Below are positions 3,468 through 29,076 of a stretch of DNA of 29,076 nt, piece after piece (positions within the stretch are counted from its first letter, which is position 1; every line of letters begins with the position of its first letter). A model generated the notes under the pieces. The model made no database searches, was not told where the DNA came from, and saw only the letters and a program-made list of their open reading frames with translations. Location: the IMG/VR virus record IMGVR_UViG_3300043595_000071, positions 1-29,076 of that record; one strand, written 5' to 3'. This DNA comes from a virus. The position numbers and the translations under genes were made by a program.

Positions 3468-3927
3468 TCGACAACTCCAACAGCGACTCGCGCACGATCT
3501 TGTCGATGATCAAGACGTCCTTGTTGGATAGGTGCGGGATCTGCTGCTTACACTTGCTGGGGATGCCCATGAACTTTGACCGCGCCCGAGTCACGACGGC
3601 TTCGAAGGCCCCCAGTGCATCCGTTCTCTTGACCAAGTGACCGGACTCACGATCGAAGTCCATCTGCTCGCGCTGGCGGCGCAGCCGTTCGCGCTGGGTT
3701 CGCTCCTCGAGGTAGGCGCCGGTCTTGATGCTGCCGTTTTGGTGACCGTTGGGACTGCCGCCCCTGGCTTTCGCTGCATCCGTATTGGCCTCCCAGGCTG
3801 CGTCGGCTTGTTCGCTATCGATTCTGCCGGCGATCGCGGTGATCCGACCAGAGGCCAAAGCCGTTTGTACTGCGTTCAACCTGCAGCCGCGGTGCCTCGC
3901 GTACTCCCTGAGACCCATCAATGGCAT
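3448..3927 (-). CDS. Terminase small subunit, Nu1-like
   Basis: Small terminases recognise the packaging site and recruit the large subunit. From the ATG at 3927 the protein has 159 residues. It begins with a winged-helix-like segment (GLREYARHRGCRLNAVQTALASGRI) typical of Nu1-like DNA-binding domains, followed by a charged region (TQRERLRRQREQMDFDRESGHLV) and a C-terminal helix likely to contact the large subunit. The reading frame is open further up to 3996, but the upstream residues are not family-like. ATGs at 3927 and 3918 both precede the HTH and neither has a strong ribosome-binding site, so the start is uncertain by three codons. It lies directly upstream of, and overlaps, the large terminase gene. 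Confidence 0.85.
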   Translation of the reverse strand: MPLMGLREYARHRGCRLNAVQTALASGRITAIAGRIDSEQADAAWEANTDAAKARGGSPNGHQNGSIKTGAYLEERTQRERLRRQREQMDFDRESGHLVKRTDALGAFEAVVTRARSKFMGIPSKCKQQIPHLSNKDVLIIDKIVRESLLELSNVDSAD

Positions 3928-4091
3928 GGAAACCCATGGCGCAAAGACCGCCAATTGACCAGAGGATTGTAAAAATATTCCATGAATCAACACCAAACAT
4001 CATCCGACCAGCCAATTTTCGTGCCAAACCAGGGTGGAATTTTGGAAGACAGAGCCCCCGCATTCTCTGGTGCTCCGGAAGAACCTAAGGG
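3928..4091. other. Non-coding gap upstream of small terminase; candidate cos region
   Basis: This is one of the few real gaps in an otherwise overlapping leftward operon. In lambda the cohesive-end site lies just upstream of the small terminase gene, so a cos site here is plausible by position. The minus-strand sequence near 3970-3985 is AT-rich (GGAATATTTTTACAATCC) and could include a TACAAT -10 element, but no -35 at good spacing is apparent. I cannot identify a cosN nicking site or repeated terminase-binding sites by eye. Confidence 0.3.
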
Positions 4092-4661
4092 CTACCCACC
4101 TCCACCCTGTGTTGCCTCCTGTTCTAGATATCTACTCAGTGCTGCCGCTGTGGCGCTCTGGAACGCTTGTTGGATCGCCTCGCCAGCAGCCGCGTCTCTA
4201 AGAACATCGCCCACACCCGAGCCCACAAGGCTCTTGATGGGGTCGCGTGGCGCGCCAGGGCCTTGTCGCTCGAACACACCACGGAATCCGCCACGCACGG
4301 TCTGGATGAAGGCATGCCGCAACAGGAAGGTCTGCCCTACGTTCACCTCGGCAGTCACACCGAGAGGCGTCTGCGTCGAGGGATACGAGCCCAGCGATAT
4401 TGGCCGTGGCGATACTTTGAGCCCCCATCGCATCGCTGCCAGTCCTGCCCTGTTGGAAGGCAACACCACTGACAGCCTGCGCTCGATGGTTGACTCCTTG
4501 ATCCGTTTCTTGGTGCGCACGTATGCCACGGCTGCACGCTGCGCTTCCTCCATCCCGTCATTCCCAGCCCTGCGAGCAGCGCGTGCAATCCGCTTCTCAT
4601 CAATCCTGGATCGGAATGCAGCAAGCTGCTGTTGGTTGATCTCGATCCGCAGGTCAACCAT
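4092..4661 (-). CDS. Minor tail protein Z-like (tail completion) protein
   Basis: The 189-residue product resembles the lambda gpZ / prophage minor tail Z family, which completes the tail terminator end before joining to heads. Supporting patterns are an N-terminal helix ending in RIARAARRAGNDGMEEAQRAAVAYVRTKKRIKESTIERRL (residues about 23-62), then SVVLPSNRAG, a beta-rich middle, and RHAFIQTVRGGFRGVFERQG (about 115-134). The ATG has a clear ribosome-binding site (GGGAGAGGAAC) and overlaps the preceding LuxR-type gene by eight bases. The position is odd: lambda Z lies among the head-tail genes downstream of the portal, whereas here it precedes the small terminase. Assignment to the Z family rests on the pattern only. 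Confidence 0.6.
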   Translation of the reverse strand: MVDLRIEINQQQLAAFRSRIDEKRIARAARRAGNDGMEEAQRAAVAYVRTKKRIKESTIERRLSVVLPSNRAGLAAMRWGLKVSPRPISLGSYPSTQTPLGVTAEVNVGQTFLLRHAFIQTVRGGFRGVFERQGPGAPRDPIKSLVGSGVGDVLRDAAAGEAIQQAFQSATAAALSRYLEQEATQGGGG

Positions 4662-4941
4662 AGTTCCTCTCCCTTGTTAGCAGCAGTGGTGATACACCCA
4701 CTCCGAGTTGGAATCGGCTGCTCATGTTGAACTTCAGTCGCACCATGCGCAGGTGATAGCGGACCGTCTTCGTAGCACGGCCCATGACATTCGCAATCTG
4801 CTTGTCTGATAGCCCCATTGCTGCGTGCTGCAGCACCCGCAACTCGATGTCGGTGAGCGTATTGCCCGCGGCAATGTGCACCCTCGGGCCCCAGATGTCC
4901 GCGGCGCTCACCGAATAGCGAATTTGCAGGTTGAGGGCCAT
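4654..4941 (-). CDS. Small LuxR-type (GerE) HTH transcription factor
   Basis: This 95-residue protein is almost only a LuxR/GerE DNA-binding domain. LTDIELRVLQHAAMGLSDKQIANVM (residues about 29-53) followed by KTVRYHLRMVRLKFNMSSRFQLGV is the four-helix HTH with the expected recognition helix. There is no receiver, autoinducer-binding or other sensor domain. Its ATG overlaps the stop of the upstream gene by one base (TGATG) and its end overlaps the gpZ-like gene. It lies just before the packaging and head genes, in the slot where lambda encodes antiterminator Q, so a role in switching on late genes is plausible. That role is an inference from position. Confidence 0.8.
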   Translation of the reverse strand: MALNLQIRYSVSAADIWGPRVHIAAGNTLTDIELRVLQHAAMGLSDKQIANVMGRATKTVRYHLRMVRLKFNMSSRFQLGVGVSPLLLTRERNYG

Positions 4942-5345
4942 CAGAGGACGCGGCTCGTGGCAGCCCGCTCCGCAAGAAACACAGCGGCCTCTTGTACCGC
5001 CTTATCGCGCTTCCATGTGCCCACCAGCGCCACCTGCCAATCCATGGGTGATAGATCTCGAACATCATCGACGCTCTGAACTCGACGGAACCGATCCGGC
5101 GTCATGTGGTTGGTGCTGCGCCAATTCTCCGCCTGCTCATCGGTGCCGGCGAAAACTAGCCAGGGTCGTGCGTCGACTACAACCCTGTGGGGCGCGTGCT
5201 GAGCGGCGGCGATGGTAATCACGAGTTCAATGGGCAGCTGCAGTGCGTCGGCAGGCGTCAGGTGCGCGGGCGTGTTCAATCTCGCAATGGGGTAGCGCGT
5301 CAGGTTGCGCATGACCGCCACCAGATTCAGGTGTGACACTTTCAC
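4941..5345 (-). CDS. Uncharacterised phage protein between two LuxR-type genes
   Basis: The gene encodes 134 residues from a GTG start at 5345, which shares GTGA with the stop of the upstream LuxR-type gene. I do not recognise a family. The sequence looks soluble and globular: a hydrophobic strand-like segment ALQLPIELVITIAAAQ, then RVVVDARPWLVFAG, a polar stretch, and a C-terminal helix QVALVGTWKRDKAVQEAAVFLAER. No membrane segment, cysteine cluster or catalytic motif is apparent. Its place between two LuxR-type HTH genes, coupled to both by overlaps, suggests a shared regulatory job, but this is not shown. Confidence 0.75.
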   Translation of the reverse strand: MKVSHLNLVAVMRNLTRYPIARLNTPAHLTPADALQLPIELVITIAAAQHAPHRVVVDARPWLVFAGTDEQAENWRSTNHMTPDRFRRVQSVDDVRDLSPMDWQVALVGTWKRDKAVQEAAVFLAERAATSRVL

Positions 5346-5713
5346 TTCCAGAGCCTCCCTTCTGCATCCGGATCGATCAGCGGCTCCTCTCGACGTATTG
5401 TTGCCGCCGATGCGCTCTTCCGATGGTTGCTACGTCCATATAACTCGATGGCCACGAGGAACAGCGCGCGCTCGGAATACACGCCGAACTTTTCCTTCAG
5501 CGACCGGACGAAAGAGCCCACCGTGACGGGACTGAGCTTCAGCACCGCGGCGATATCGACCTGCCGCGTCCCCTTCGAGAGCAGCTTCATCACCTGTTCG
5601 TGGCGCATGGACAAGCACACCGGCGTGATGAGCCTCCATGATCCATTTGCACGCCTGACCGCCCATGCCCGATGAAATGGCGAGGTGCGGCGCTTTGGCT
5701 TTTCTTGCTGCAT
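5342..5713 (-). CDS. Second small LuxR-type HTH transcription factor
   Basis: From the ATG at 5713 (ribosome-binding site GGAAGGAA eight bases upstream) the product has 123 residues. The DNA-binding region is MRHEQVMKLLSKGTRQVDIAAVL followed by SPVTVGSFVRSLKEKFGVYSERALFLVAIEL, a LuxR/GerE-like four-helix arrangement. The N-terminus (QQEKPKRRTSPFHRAWAVRR) is basic and the tail is acidic. The frame is open further upstream, but that stretch is occupied by a separate small gene in another frame. It is distantly similar to the 95-residue HTH protein two genes downstream and may be its partner or paralogue. There is no sensor domain. Confidence 0.75.
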   Translation of the reverse strand: MQQEKPKRRTSPFHRAWAVRRANGSWRLITPVCLSMRHEQVMKLLSKGTRQVDIAAVLKLSPVTVGSFVRSLKEKFGVYSERALFLVAIELYGRSNHRKSASAATIRREEPLIDPDAEGRLWK

Positions 5714-11127: not shown

Positions 11128-11288
11128 TGGCGTTCGTTCTTCTTGTTGGTGCTGCGCGCCGCATCCAGCGACACGGCAATGTCGACGTAGATGCGATGTG
11201 GCGGGAACAGAGAGATCAGCCAAGGCGCGATCCGCCACTTACCGCCGTGGAATCGGAGCGATGGCCTGGTGATGGGTTCGGCGCTCAT
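11124..11288 (-). pseudogene. N-terminal remnant of a phage DNA adenine methylase
   Basis: A 54-residue frame runs from ATG 11288 (ATGA overlap with the upstream stop) to a TGA at 11124 that overlaps the initiator ATG. Residues 9-36, LRFHGGKWRIAPWLISLFPPHRIYVD, match the start of Dam-type N6-adenine methylases, where GGK(W)xxAPWI and FPxHxxYVEPF form the AdoMet-binding motif. The match ends exactly where EPFGGGxSVL should follow; the remainder, IAVSLDAARSTNKKNERQ, is unrelated. Both coupling overlaps are kept, so an in-frame internal deletion of most of the gene is likely. The catalytic DPPY motif is absent, so it cannot be an active methylase. Confidence 0.7.
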
Positions 11289-12276: not shown

Positions 12277-12350
12277 TGGCGCCCCCGTGACGATTCGAAC
12301 GTCCACCGTCCGCGTGATCAGCGCGGCCGCTCTCCCAGAGCTGCAGGGGC
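12277..12350 (-). tRNA. tRNA-Ile (GAU anticodon), atypical
   Basis: The minus strand folds as a cloverleaf of 74 bases. The acceptor GCCCCTG pairs with CGGGGGC over all seven positions, and G73 and an encoded CCA follow. The D stem is GCTC/GAGC, the anticodon stem CCGCG/CGCGG with loop CTGATCA (anticodon GAT), and the T loop TTCGAAT with stem GGACG/CGTCA (one mismatch). Oddities are C at position 37, where tRNA-Ile normally has A, and G73 instead of A73. It lies in the leftward transcript between the Cro-like gene and HNH-like copy B. A long minus-strand frame crosses it. Confidence 0.7.
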
Positions 12351-26865: not shown

Positions 26866-27132
26866 ATGTTCCTCGACGCCACGCAACTCGCGCAACTCAC
26901 CGGTCGCAAGCGGCCCAAGGCTCAGTGCGAGTTCCTGGCGCGCGAGGGTTACCACTTCCGGGTCAATGCATGTGGCGAGCCGGTGGTGCTGGTGGCCGAG
27001 GTTCACAAGCGATTCGGCGTCGAGCTGGCTCCTCAGCCCGGGCGTGCGCCTGGCGGAAAATCGATCCTGGATTGGCAGGCGATGGAGCGTCGCGGTATGG
27101 TCCGCCTCCGTGGGCCGCACAAGAACTCATAA
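26866..27132 (+). CDS. DUF4224 protein, likely excisionase-type factor
   Basis: The 88-residue product starts FLDATQLAQLTGRKRPKAQCEFLAREGYHFRVNACGEPVVL, which matches the DUF4224 family found immediately upstream of phage tyrosine integrases. The small HTH-like fold and position suggest a directionality factor or integrase regulator. Its end overlaps the integrase start by 23 bases. The role is inferred from family context. Confidence 0.82.
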   Translation: MFLDATQLAQLTGRKRPKAQCEFLAREGYHFRVNACGEPVVLVAEVHKRFGVELAPQPGRAPGGKSILDWQAMERRGMVRLRGPHKNS

Positions 27133-28138
27133 CAGGCATCTGCCCCGCCGCGTTTACCAGCGCCGCGGCAAGTACTACTACGTTCATCCCAACGGTGAGT
27201 GGCTCCCCCTCGGCGATGATTATGGCAATGCCCTGCGCAGGTACGCGGACTTGATCGGGGAGCGGCCCATCGGGACACTCTCGGAGTTGTTCGATCGCTA
27301 CCTGCTCGAGGTCATCCCAAAGAAAGCGGCCACGACTCAGGAGGGGCAGCGGGTTCAACTTGAACTGCTCCGCATCGCCGTTGGACGCTCAAAGCCTCAC
27401 GAGCTTGCCGCGCGGGATGTGATCCGGTACCGCAACGCGCGCGGGCAAAAGTCGAAGGCCCAGGCGAACCAAGAGATCGCGCTGCTCTCCCACATCTGCA
27501 CCATGGCGGTGGAGTGGGAAGTGCTGGAGACCAATCCTTGCCGCGACGTCAAGAAGTTCCAGATCGCGCCGCGTGACCACTATGTCGAGGATGCCGATTA
27601 CATGGCGATGCGGGCAGCCTGCGGCGAGCGTCTGCAAGTGCTGATGGATCTGGCGCTGCTGACTGGGCAACGCCAAGCGGACCTGCTGCGGCTGCGTTGG
27701 GACCAGCTCGACAAGGATGGAATCAGGTTTCGCCAGGGCAAGACCGGGAAGGTGCTGATCATGTCTTGGTCGGCGGAGTTGCGCCGCGTTATCGCTCGAG
27801 CAAAGGAGATCGAGCCGACCGGCGTCACAGTGGTCGCGACCGAGCGCGGTGGGCAATACACCAAAGACGGCTTCAGCACGCTATGGCACCGGGCACGCCT
27901 CAGAGCCAAGGAGAAGGGATTGCAGAGGCCCTTCCAATTCCACGACCTGAGAGCCAAGTCGGCCAGCGATGACGCATTGGCCGCCGCGAGCGAGAGGCTT
28001 GGGCACGCCAGCACAGCAACCACCCAACGCGTTTACCGGCGGGCGCCGAGCCGGGTGAAGCCCCTGGATTTTGGACGCGCCAGCCTTATTGGACGTGAGC
28101 ACCGGTCGGGAACTCGGAAAAAGCAGGCTCGGAAGTAG
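27110..28138 (+). CDS. int: Tyrosine-type phage integrase
   Basis: From a GTG at 27110 (product beginning GRTRTHNRHLPRRVYQRRGKYY, a usual start in DUF4224-linked integrases) the protein has 342 residues. It performs site-specific recombination between attP and attB. The catalytic residues are all present: Arg188 (TGQRQ), Lys211 (GKTGK), His278 and Arg281 (HDLRAKS), His299 (LGHAST) and Tyr309 (RVYRR). Residues about 55-145 are the core-binding SAM-like domain. The frame is open further upstream but within the DUF4224 gene. The putative attachment site begins 13 bases after its stop. Confidence 0.93.
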   Translation: MGRTRTHNRHLPRRVYQRRGKYYYVHPNGEWLPLGDDYGNALRRYADLIGERPIGTLSELFDRYLLEVIPKKAATTQEGQRVQLELLRIAVGRSKPHELAARDVIRYRNARGQKSKAQANQEIALLSHICTMAVEWEVLETNPCRDVKKFQIAPRDHYVEDADYMAMRAACGERLQVLMDLALLTGQRQADLLRLRWDQLDKDGIRFRQGKTGKVLIMSWSAELRRVIARAKEIEPTGVTVVATERGGQYTKDGFSTLWHRARLRAKEKGLQRPFQFHDLRAKSASDDALAAASERLGHASTATTQRVYRRAPSRVKPLDFGRASLIGREHRSGTRKKQARK

Positions 28139-28151
28139 TCGGGCACCTACC

Positions 28152-28195
28152 TGTGAATCCGGTTGTCATGGGTTCGAATCCCATACGCCACCCCA
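28152..28195 (+). other. Attachment site: 3' half of a tRNA-His gene
   Basis: Forty-four bases match the 3' part of a bacterial tRNA-His from the anticodon loop onward: TGTGAA (anticodon GTG), GGTTGTC, T arm ATGGG-TTCGAAT-CCCAT, acceptor strand ACGCCAC, then CCCA including CCA. The 5' half is absent: upstream CACCTACC cannot pair with it. A tRNA 3' end directly after an integrase is the normal sign of an attP or attR core, with crossover at the anticodon loop. This predicts a complete tRNA-His at the other end of the prophage. Confidence 0.8.
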
Positions 28196-28208: not shown

Positions 28209-28297
28209 ATGCTCGTGGCTGAGCGGCTGAAAGCACCGGTCTGCAACACCGGCAAGCGTCGAGCTCCACGCCAGTTCGAATCTGGCCGAGCATTCCA
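28209..28297 (+). tRNA. tRNA-Cys (GCA) with a long variable arm
   Basis: An 89-base cloverleaf with CCA encoded. The acceptor ATGCTCG pairs fully with CGAGCAT. The D arm is GGCTGAGCGGCTGAAAGC, the anticodon stem CCGGT/ACCGG with loop CTGCAAC (anticodon GCA), the T arm GCCAG-TTCGAAT-CTGGC. The variable region is 17 bases and can form a small stem (AGC/GCT), as in class II tRNAs. The body resembles tRNA-Ser, but U73 (before CCA) and GCA are the main cysteine identity elements. Charging by cysteinyl-tRNA synthetase is therefore predicted. Confidence 0.8.
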
Positions 28298-28303
28298 TTT
28301 GAT

Positions 28304-28387
28304 CTCGGAACGTAGCGCAGCCTGGTCAGCGTACCTGCCTTGTTCGGGACGAGGAAGTCGCACGTTCGAATCGTGTCATCGAGACCA
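28304..28387 (+). tRNA. tRNA-Pro-like (CGG), irregular structure
   Basis: The anticodon arm CCTTG-TTCGGGA-CGAGG gives anticodon CGG with proper U33 and G37, and the D arm GCGCAGCCTGGTCAGCGT and T arm GCACG-TTCGAAT-CGTGT are normal, followed by A73 and CCA. However, four extra bases (CCTG) separate the D and anticodon stems, and the acceptor pairs only over CTCGG/TCGAG with two or more mismatches. It is either a decaying tRNA or one with an unusual fold. Confidence 0.5.
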
Positions 28388-28407: not shown

Positions 28408-28482
28408 GGCCATGCAGCTCAATGGCAGAGCACTCGGCTGATAACCGAGAGGTTGCAGGTTCGACCCCTGCGGTGGCCACCA
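28408..28482 (+). tRNA. tRNA-Ile (GAT)
   Basis: A 75-base cloverleaf: acceptor GGCCATG with GGTGGCC (one mismatch), D stem GCTC/GAGC, anticodon stem CTCGG/CCGAG with loop CTGATAA (anticodon GAT, A37), T arm GCAGG-TTCGACC-CCTGC, A73 and encoded CCA. All isoleucine-type positions visible are usual. It reads AUU/AUC codons. Confidence 0.88.
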
Positions 28483-28488
28483 TTCACC

Positions 28489-28563
28489 GGTGCAATGGCG
28501 TAACGGCAACGCGGCGGCCCCATGAGCCGACGACTGATGGTTCGAATCCATCTTGCACCACCA
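28489..28563 (+). tRNA. tRNA-Met/Ile2 type (CAT), with C33
   Basis: A 75-base cloverleaf: acceptor GGTGCAA/TTGCACC (seven pairs), D stem GCGT/ACGC, anticodon stem GCGGC/GCCGA (one mismatch) with loop CCCATGA (anticodon CAT), T arm GATGG-TTCGAAT-CCATC, A73 and CCA. Position 33 is C in place of the nearly universal U. CAT may be a methionine anticodon or, after lysidine modification, an AUA-reading isoleucine tRNA. Confidence 0.75.
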
Positions 28564-28728: not shown

Positions 28729-28860
28729 ATGTTGTTCCCCACCACGCTCGTCGGCAGTTATCCGCAACCGGACTGGCTGATCGATCGCGAGAAGCTCGCG
28801 GGCCGATTCCCACCGCGCGTGCGTGCGCGCGAACTGTGGCGCATTCCGGAGCAGTGGCTC
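28729..28860 (+). pseudogene. 5' fragment of a MetE-like methionine synthase II gene
   Basis: The 44 codons from ATG 28729 encode LFPTTLVGSYPQPDWLIDRE, then KLAGRFPPRVRARELWRIPE and QWL. This matches the start of cobalamin-independent methionine synthase II-like proteins, where VGSYPxPDWLIDR and PPRVRAxELWR are conserved. Family members continue with an EEAQDDAT-type helix and run for over 300 residues. Here, after about 28860, the frame goes on to a stop at 29076 but the sequence is unrelated (HRRRHACLVILNSL...). The gene is broken by an insertion, deletion or sequence join. This is a cellular metabolic gene, suggesting host DNA. Confidence 0.65.
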
Positions 28861-29076
28861 CACAGGCGCAGGCATGCTTGTTTGGTTATTCTGAACTCTC
28901 TTTTGCAGGGGACGGTTTTACCTGAGGAGCTTTCGGACCCAAGTCCGACAAGTTCCTGGCATGACCGACTGACGACCCGGACAGCAGGGACACTAGTTCA
29001 GGGAGACACAGGGTATGGATACGAACCCGCGGTTACTCTTGCTCGCGTGCTGGTGGCACTCGGCGTGACGGCGTAG
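28861..29076. other. Unassigned sequence after the MetE-like break
   Basis: The last 216 bases show no recognised gene. A hairpin TCGGAC-CCAA-GTCCGA lies near 28935-28950. The sudden loss of MetE similarity at its left border suggests that this is the edge of another element or a deletion product. I could not identify terminal inverted repeats or a transposase in the available length. Confidence 0.35.

Follow-up and report, generated by a model that had tools for sequence, protein, structure and literature searches.

A class II tRNA-Cys gene with a serine-like body beside a prophage integrase, and its relatives in phage and bacterial tRNA clusters

A tRNA gene with a long variable arm, the anticodon GCA and U at the discriminator position (U73) was analysed in a 29,076-base record classed as viral (the whole of this stretch is referred to as the window). 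It probably specifies a functional class II tRNA-Cys that is charged by cysteinyl-tRNA synthetase (CysRS) and belongs to a kind that recurs in mobile tRNA clusters. Class II tRNAs are usually listed as those for serine, leucine, selenocysteine and, in bacteria, tyrosine. Because such genes recur in phage and bacterial clusters, a genuine kind of cysteine tRNA that has drawn little attention seems likelier than a chance oddity, and this recurrence with a near-fixed U73 is of more interest than the single gene in the window.

The tRNA gene and its fold

The following features were distinguished:
28209..28297, + strand: class II tRNA-Cys(GCA) with U73 and an encoded CCA (ARAGORN; Rfam RF00005; pairing)
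28243..28245, + strand: anticodon GCA in the loop CUGCAAC (ARAGORN; sequence)
28253..28269, + strand: variable region CAAGCGTCGAGCTCCAC, 17 nt, with a 3-bp stem AGC/GCT and 4 nt, including nt 48, on its 3' side
28294..28294, + strand: discriminator U73 (sequence; Rfam alignment)

ARAGORN called a tRNA-Cys(gca) at 28209-28297 (+) with the anticodon at position 35. The Rfam tRNA covariance model (RF00005), a check proposed in the first-pass annotation, matched 28209-28294 with 54.3 bits (E 3e-9 over the window), above its gathering score of 29. All 23 pairs of the cloverleaf as drawn are Watson-Crick pairs, comprising the acceptor stem AUGCUCG/CGAGCAU, a D stem of 3 bp, the anticodon stem CCGGU/ACCGG, the variable stem AGC/GCU and the T stem GCCAG/CUGGC, which are followed by U73 and CCA. 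The acceptor and T stems are arranged 7/5 without a bulge, the end pair is A1:U72, and G15 is combined with C48 in place of the G15:G48 pair of the E. coli type. As both the anticodon and T stems are perfect, the 17 nt between them are fixed (CAAGCGUCGAGCUCCAC in the pairing check), and a fold with a short variable loop, which the first-pass annotation had named as the outcome that would overturn its reading, was ruled out. Its assignment to class II with a 17-base variable region is thus borne out, as is the presence of the cysteine determinants GCA and U73. A pattern for class II GCA tRNAs matched once in the window and in none of 100 shuffles. The cloverleaf (-27.4 kcal/mol) is not the minimum-energy fold (-30.9 kcal/mol when unconstrained), which carries little weight since a cellular tRNA-Ser shows the same pattern (-34.6 and -38.9 kcal/mol, respectively). 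No sigma-70-like promoter was found.

Genomic context

The record encodes a terminase, a primase/helicase, an exonuclease, a methyltransferase and an integrase. About 420 bp of the window hold three tRNAs, one degenerate tRNA and one truncated tRNA, within the following neighbourhood:
26966..28138, + strand: tyrosine integrase ORF as listed, the true start of which may lie further 3' (PHROG phrog_1, E 6.5e-46; Pfam PF00589, E 3.9e-13)
28151..28195, + strand: 3' part of a tRNA, from anticodon loop to CCA, read by eye as tRNA-His(GTG)
28306..28382, + strand: degenerate tRNA, by eye a remnant of tRNA-Pro(CGG) (Rfam tRNA, 22.0 bits)
28408..28482, + strand: tRNA-Ile(GAT) (ARAGORN; Rfam, 58.5 bits)
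28489..28563, + strand: tRNA-Met(CAT) (ARAGORN; Rfam, 60.4 bits)
28729..28860, + strand: the 44 initial codons of a gene of the MetE/uroporphyrinogen-decarboxylase family, with unrelated sequence following (translation; similarity)

A DUF4224 protein (26866-27132, +; PF13986, E 2.1e-12) is encoded immediately ahead of the integrase. The truncated tRNA, separated by 13 bases from the end of the integrase ORF (28138), was read as tRNA-His on the basis of the CUGUGAA loop at its start and C73-CCA at its end. This fragment is probably the attR core of a prophage attachment site. A 41-nt piece of it occurs only once within the window, which places attL, the other prophage end, outside the record. 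The tRNA-Pro-like remnant has broken acceptor pairs, scores below the gathering score of 29 and received no ARAGORN call at default settings. The MetE-family gene is broken after codon 44, where the reading frame continues into unrelated sequence (28729-29076), which represents a recombination scar or an assembly joint. A further tRNA-Ile call by ARAGORN inside an ORF (12277-12350, -) lacks Rfam support and is probably false. Given that the class II tRNA-Cys gene lies 3' of both the integrase and the att-like tRNA-His fragment, the DNA beyond this fragment is more likely to be that of the host or an older element. The gene is thus located outside the phage genes proper, in a small, decaying tRNA cluster.

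Recurrence in viral contigs

Viral contigs were first scanned with a pattern that required the anticodon GCA, an extended variable region and a D arm resembling that of tRNA-Ser, with base 73 left free; a Ser-like body among the relatives is therefore in part a product of the pattern, which does not apply to base 73. Fifty-two contigs matched, and fifty of these carry a real class II GCA tRNA called tRNA-Cys by ARAGORN. A narrower tRNA pattern matched none of the viral contigs. U73 is present in 49/50 viral class II GCA genes, with A73 in the remaining one (L004). By contrast, tRNA-Ser of the same loci, passed through the same filters, has G73 in 28/29 cases, while the Leu and Tyr tRNAs of these loci have A73 throughout (52/52 and 32/32, respectively). 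The contrast in U73 between class II GCA tRNAs and tRNA-Ser is marked when counted on genes (Fisher, 4e-19) and on unique viral and bacterial sequences (39/41 versus 1/29; p 4e-16), and 20 of the 22 clusters formed at 80 % identity contain U73 only. These figures derive from 695 tRNA rows, of which 657 were parsed and 642 passed the stem filters. The one tRNA-Ser with U73, a tRNA-Ser(TGA), occurs in a locus (L027) whose tRNA order matches that of Enterobacter phage PG7. This isolated phage carries a class II gene, named plainly tRNA-Cys in its record.

Two further scans were done with the anticodon stems fixed and the variable length free, and 80 of at least 120 stretches were examined per scan. 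Among the matches listed, class I GCA tRNAs, which served as positive control, have U73 in 151/151 cases and class II GCA tRNAs in 9/10, three of the latter (L004, L005 and L008) being already known from the first scan. Class II tRNAs account for ten of the 161 GCA tRNAs among the matches listed and are thus a minority in that sample. Where fetched loci contain at least fifteen tRNA genes (up to twenty isotypes), the sole tRNA-Cys is of class II in 18/18, although these loci were picked for holding a class II gene, so that the figure speaks to the absence of a class I partner and not to frequency. Two loci (L183 and L194) have a D arm that by eye resembles tRNA-Tyr, yet also U73. The occurrence of Ser-like and Tyr-like bodies with U73 suggests that such tRNAs arose more than once and converged on one outcome. 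The 38-tRNA locus L183 holds both its Tyr-like class II gene (3787-3870) and a class I tRNA-Cys (11166-11239).

Recurrence in bacteria and host-side searches

The genome scan yielded 65 matches, of which 47 were archaeal and were set aside, as by eye they resemble intron-containing class I tRNA-Cys. Among the eighteen bacterial matches, seven were called tRNA-Cys, nine contained no tRNA according to ARAGORN and two (L097 and L071) were not called Cys. U73 is found in six of the seven class II GCA genes and C73 in the other (L087). Clusters with class II tRNA-Cys occur in Rhodoferax, Hydrogenophaga (two), Piscinibacter and an Akkermansiaceae MAG, with clusters of 10 to 31 tRNAs in L073, L090, L092, L095 and L103, while in a gammaproteobacterial MAG it is the lone tRNA on a short contig. 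Genes for an RtcB RNA ligase (4477-5694) and an HNH endonuclease (3870-4439) adjoin the cluster of L073. The class II tRNA of L071 (424-514), from a soil acidobacterium, has C73 and an anticodon loop of doubtful assignment ('gcaa') and is allo-tRNA-like.

The host is probably alphaproteobacterial. A search with the integrase among viral contigs gave no relative, and the cluster region was matched in 4/7 array genomes at merely 74-85 % over 39-71 bases. The 44-amino acid MetE piece was found in 3/369 genomes in the class of the genome holding L103 (G001) and 14/398 in its phylum. Its best genome match was G513 (82 % identity), and the identity to an Aminobacter plasmid was 88.6 %. In the family of G513, matches to the cluster region were obtained in 51/149 genomes, most of them to the tRNA-Pro-like remnant or the MetE piece. 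The window tRNA alone was matched in 0/296 genomes of the order at E 1e-6, with at most three candidates scored per genome. A search for 16S in two genomes likewise gave no match.

Serine-like body, variable arm and origin

The D and anticodon arms are identical to those of cellular tRNA-Ser(UGA) at 32/34 positions, the anticodon itself excluded, and the label "serine-bodied" in the first-pass annotation is thus a fair one. The tRNA-Ser(UGA) reference was taken from two genomes of the family of G513, and both cellular sequences entered the comparison through BLAST matches. A core classifier of modest accuracy (leave-one-locus-out: Ser 25/29, Tyr 15/22, Leu 38/40) likewise places the window tRNA as Ser ahead of Tyr and Leu. 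Tyr parentage was rejected on this basis (-12.7 for Ser versus -15.8, variable arm left out). Compared with the closest cellular tRNA-Ser found, eight of the twelve pairs of the acceptor and T stems differ, in every case with both bases replaced and never just one, which indicates either that selection kept the pairing or that whole arms were swapped, giving a chimaera. The T arm and the four preceding nucleotides (21 nt) are identical in the phage class II tRNA-Cys of L042, L054 and L055, and the T stem of the window tRNA occurs in 3/41 class II Cys tRNAs versus 0/454 other unique tRNAs. The shared T arm would point to common descent or a chimaera, while the D and anticodon arms would point to cellular tRNA-Ser. 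A FastTree phylogeny of 94 tRNAs, which left out the L087 gene, showed seven label changes. The nodes linking the window gene with L090 and L103 have low support (0.42 and 0.34), so that a single origin is not established by the tree.

Variable stems were compared by hairpin search in 29 tRNA-Ser, 41 class II Cys and 22 tRNA-Tyr. In the window tRNA the stem has 3 bp and is followed on its 3' side by 4 nt, in contrast to tRNA-Ser, where 5-6 bp with 1 nt predominate; the window tRNA thus lacks both G73 and a variable arm of the kind typical of tRNA-Ser (a stem of about 5 bp followed by 1 nt). Among the class II Cys tRNAs, a 3-bp variable stem is missing in 9/41 and 3 nt are found on the 3' side in 16/41, the latter also being the case in 14/22 tRNA-Tyr.

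Charging and alternative explanations

CysRS depends chiefly on U73 and GCA as determinants, and for minihelices U73 by itself is enough to give cysteine identity (PMC9976931). A serine-type class II ancestor may have changed its anticodon to GCA and base 73 to U, upon which CysRS would read GCA and U73, charge the tRNA with cysteine and allow UGC and UGU to be decoded. The weaker, differently set variable arm and the loss of G73 would largely keep seryl-tRNA synthetase (SerRS) off. Such tRNAs would fill the cysteine slot in mobile tRNA clusters, both phage-borne and bacterial, and the window would hold the remnant of one such cluster, into the tRNA-His of which a prophage appears to have integrated. 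Several features count against a functional tRNA-Cys charged by CysRS. The A1:U72 end pair is found in just 3/41 unique class II relatives, with G1:C72 in 36/41, the E. coli-type G15:G48 pair is missing, the neighbouring tRNA is degenerate, no promoter match was found and integration would have parted the cluster from any promoter upstream of tRNA-His.

Alternatively, the gene may be a relic whose anticodon was switched and which, as part of a decaying cluster, is no longer transcribed or charged. The low-scoring tRNA-Pro-like neighbour, the cut tRNA-His, the lack of a promoter match, A1:U72 and the shortened variable stem fit this explanation. However, the perfect stems, the exclusively double-sided changes relative to cellular tRNA-Ser and the scores of the adjoining tRNA-Ile and tRNA-Met (58-60 bits) argue against decay of the gene itself, and a relic is considered unlikely, if still a serious alternative.

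Ownership by the phage, with the tRNA supplying Cys-tRNA during infection as the first-pass annotation had suggested, is compatible with cysteine charging and concerns only to whom the gene belongs. Although the record is classed as viral and many relatives reside in phage tRNA clusters, one of them in the isolated phage PG7, the gene is separated from the phage genes by the integrase and the cut tRNA and adjoins a truncated gene of chromosomal type. The proposed supply during infection is therefore not supported, and phage ownership appears quite unlikely.

SerRS reads class II tRNAs and does not need the anticodon, so that some serylation may occur. Charging by SerRS, with Cys codons read as Ser, or by both enzymes, would be in keeping with the tRNA-Ser(UGA)-like arms and with the acceptance of the class II form by SerRS described in PMC7609411, but G73 has been replaced, the Ser-type variable stem has been lost and the near-fixed U73 of the viral genes would go unexplained, making this improbable; where the first-pass annotation had left cysteine supply and misreading side by side, cysteine is thus favoured and misreading as Ser disfavoured.

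A bolder extension of cysteine charging, to which little credence is given, is that phages and mobile clusters repeatedly rebuild tRNA-Cys on Ser- or Tyr-type class II bodies, with charging by CysRS kept through U73 and GCA. The reason, equally speculative, would be escape from host enzymes that cut or modify the ordinary class I tRNA-Cys, for example anticodon nucleases belonging to defence or toxin systems. If the tRNA is charged by CysRS, few changes would suffice in nature to shift cysteine identity onto a serine-type body, and the divide between class I and class II would not follow the amino acid in the way that is commonly tabulated. These genes would then provide natural test molecules for discrimination between CysRS and SerRS, and the question would arise of why mobile tRNA clusters use such bodies.

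Comparison with known systems

Canonical class I tRNA-Cys shares GCA and U73 with the window tRNA but has a short variable loop instead of 17 nt, and the D arms differ. Bacterial tRNA-Ser(UGA) has the D and anticodon arms in common with it, but departs from it in the anticodon, base 73 and the variable, acceptor and T stems. Mobile tRNA arrays (tRNA array units and cyanobacterial plasmid arrays) likewise carry clustered, redundant tRNAs on mobile DNA, whereas the cluster in the window is short and decayed. The array on a plasmid of Nostoc TCL26-01 includes a class I tRNA-Cys of 75 nt. Two Nostoc plasmid arrays of 20 and 21 tRNAs (L387 and L388) adjoin an HNH endonuclease gene; L388 contains a class I tRNA-Cys, and the plasmid gene table gives no RNA genes. 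Nothing was found in support of a tRNA-Ser(GCA) in the Anabaena tRNA operon.

The nearest described kind is the selC* tRNA-Cys (Mukai et al. 2017, as described in PMC7609411 and PMC9437257), an existing case of cysteine identity in a tRNA with a long arm. It resembles the window tRNA in the long variable arm, the GCA (or UCA) anticodon, U73 and cysteine identity, as well as, in some selC* tRNAs, in A1:U72, which according to a review (PMC7609411) an ordinary CysRS would not recognise in these selC* tRNAs. As these sources describe it, the acceptor and T stems of selC* are arranged 8/4, with A51a bulged out and the anticodon stem lengthened, and certain species have a CysRS* and SelB* dedicated to it (PMC7609411, PMC9437257). 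No selB* or cysS* was found among the sixteen different window ORFs scanned, and the 7/5 stems, without a bulge, differ from the 8/4 or 9/3 stems of selC* and allo-tRNAs. A description of a 7/5 class II tRNA-Cys in phages or arrays was not found in the literature searched, which was partially covered. Thus, while a long-armed cysteine tRNA is already known in the 8/4 form of selC*, the 7/5 form would be new.
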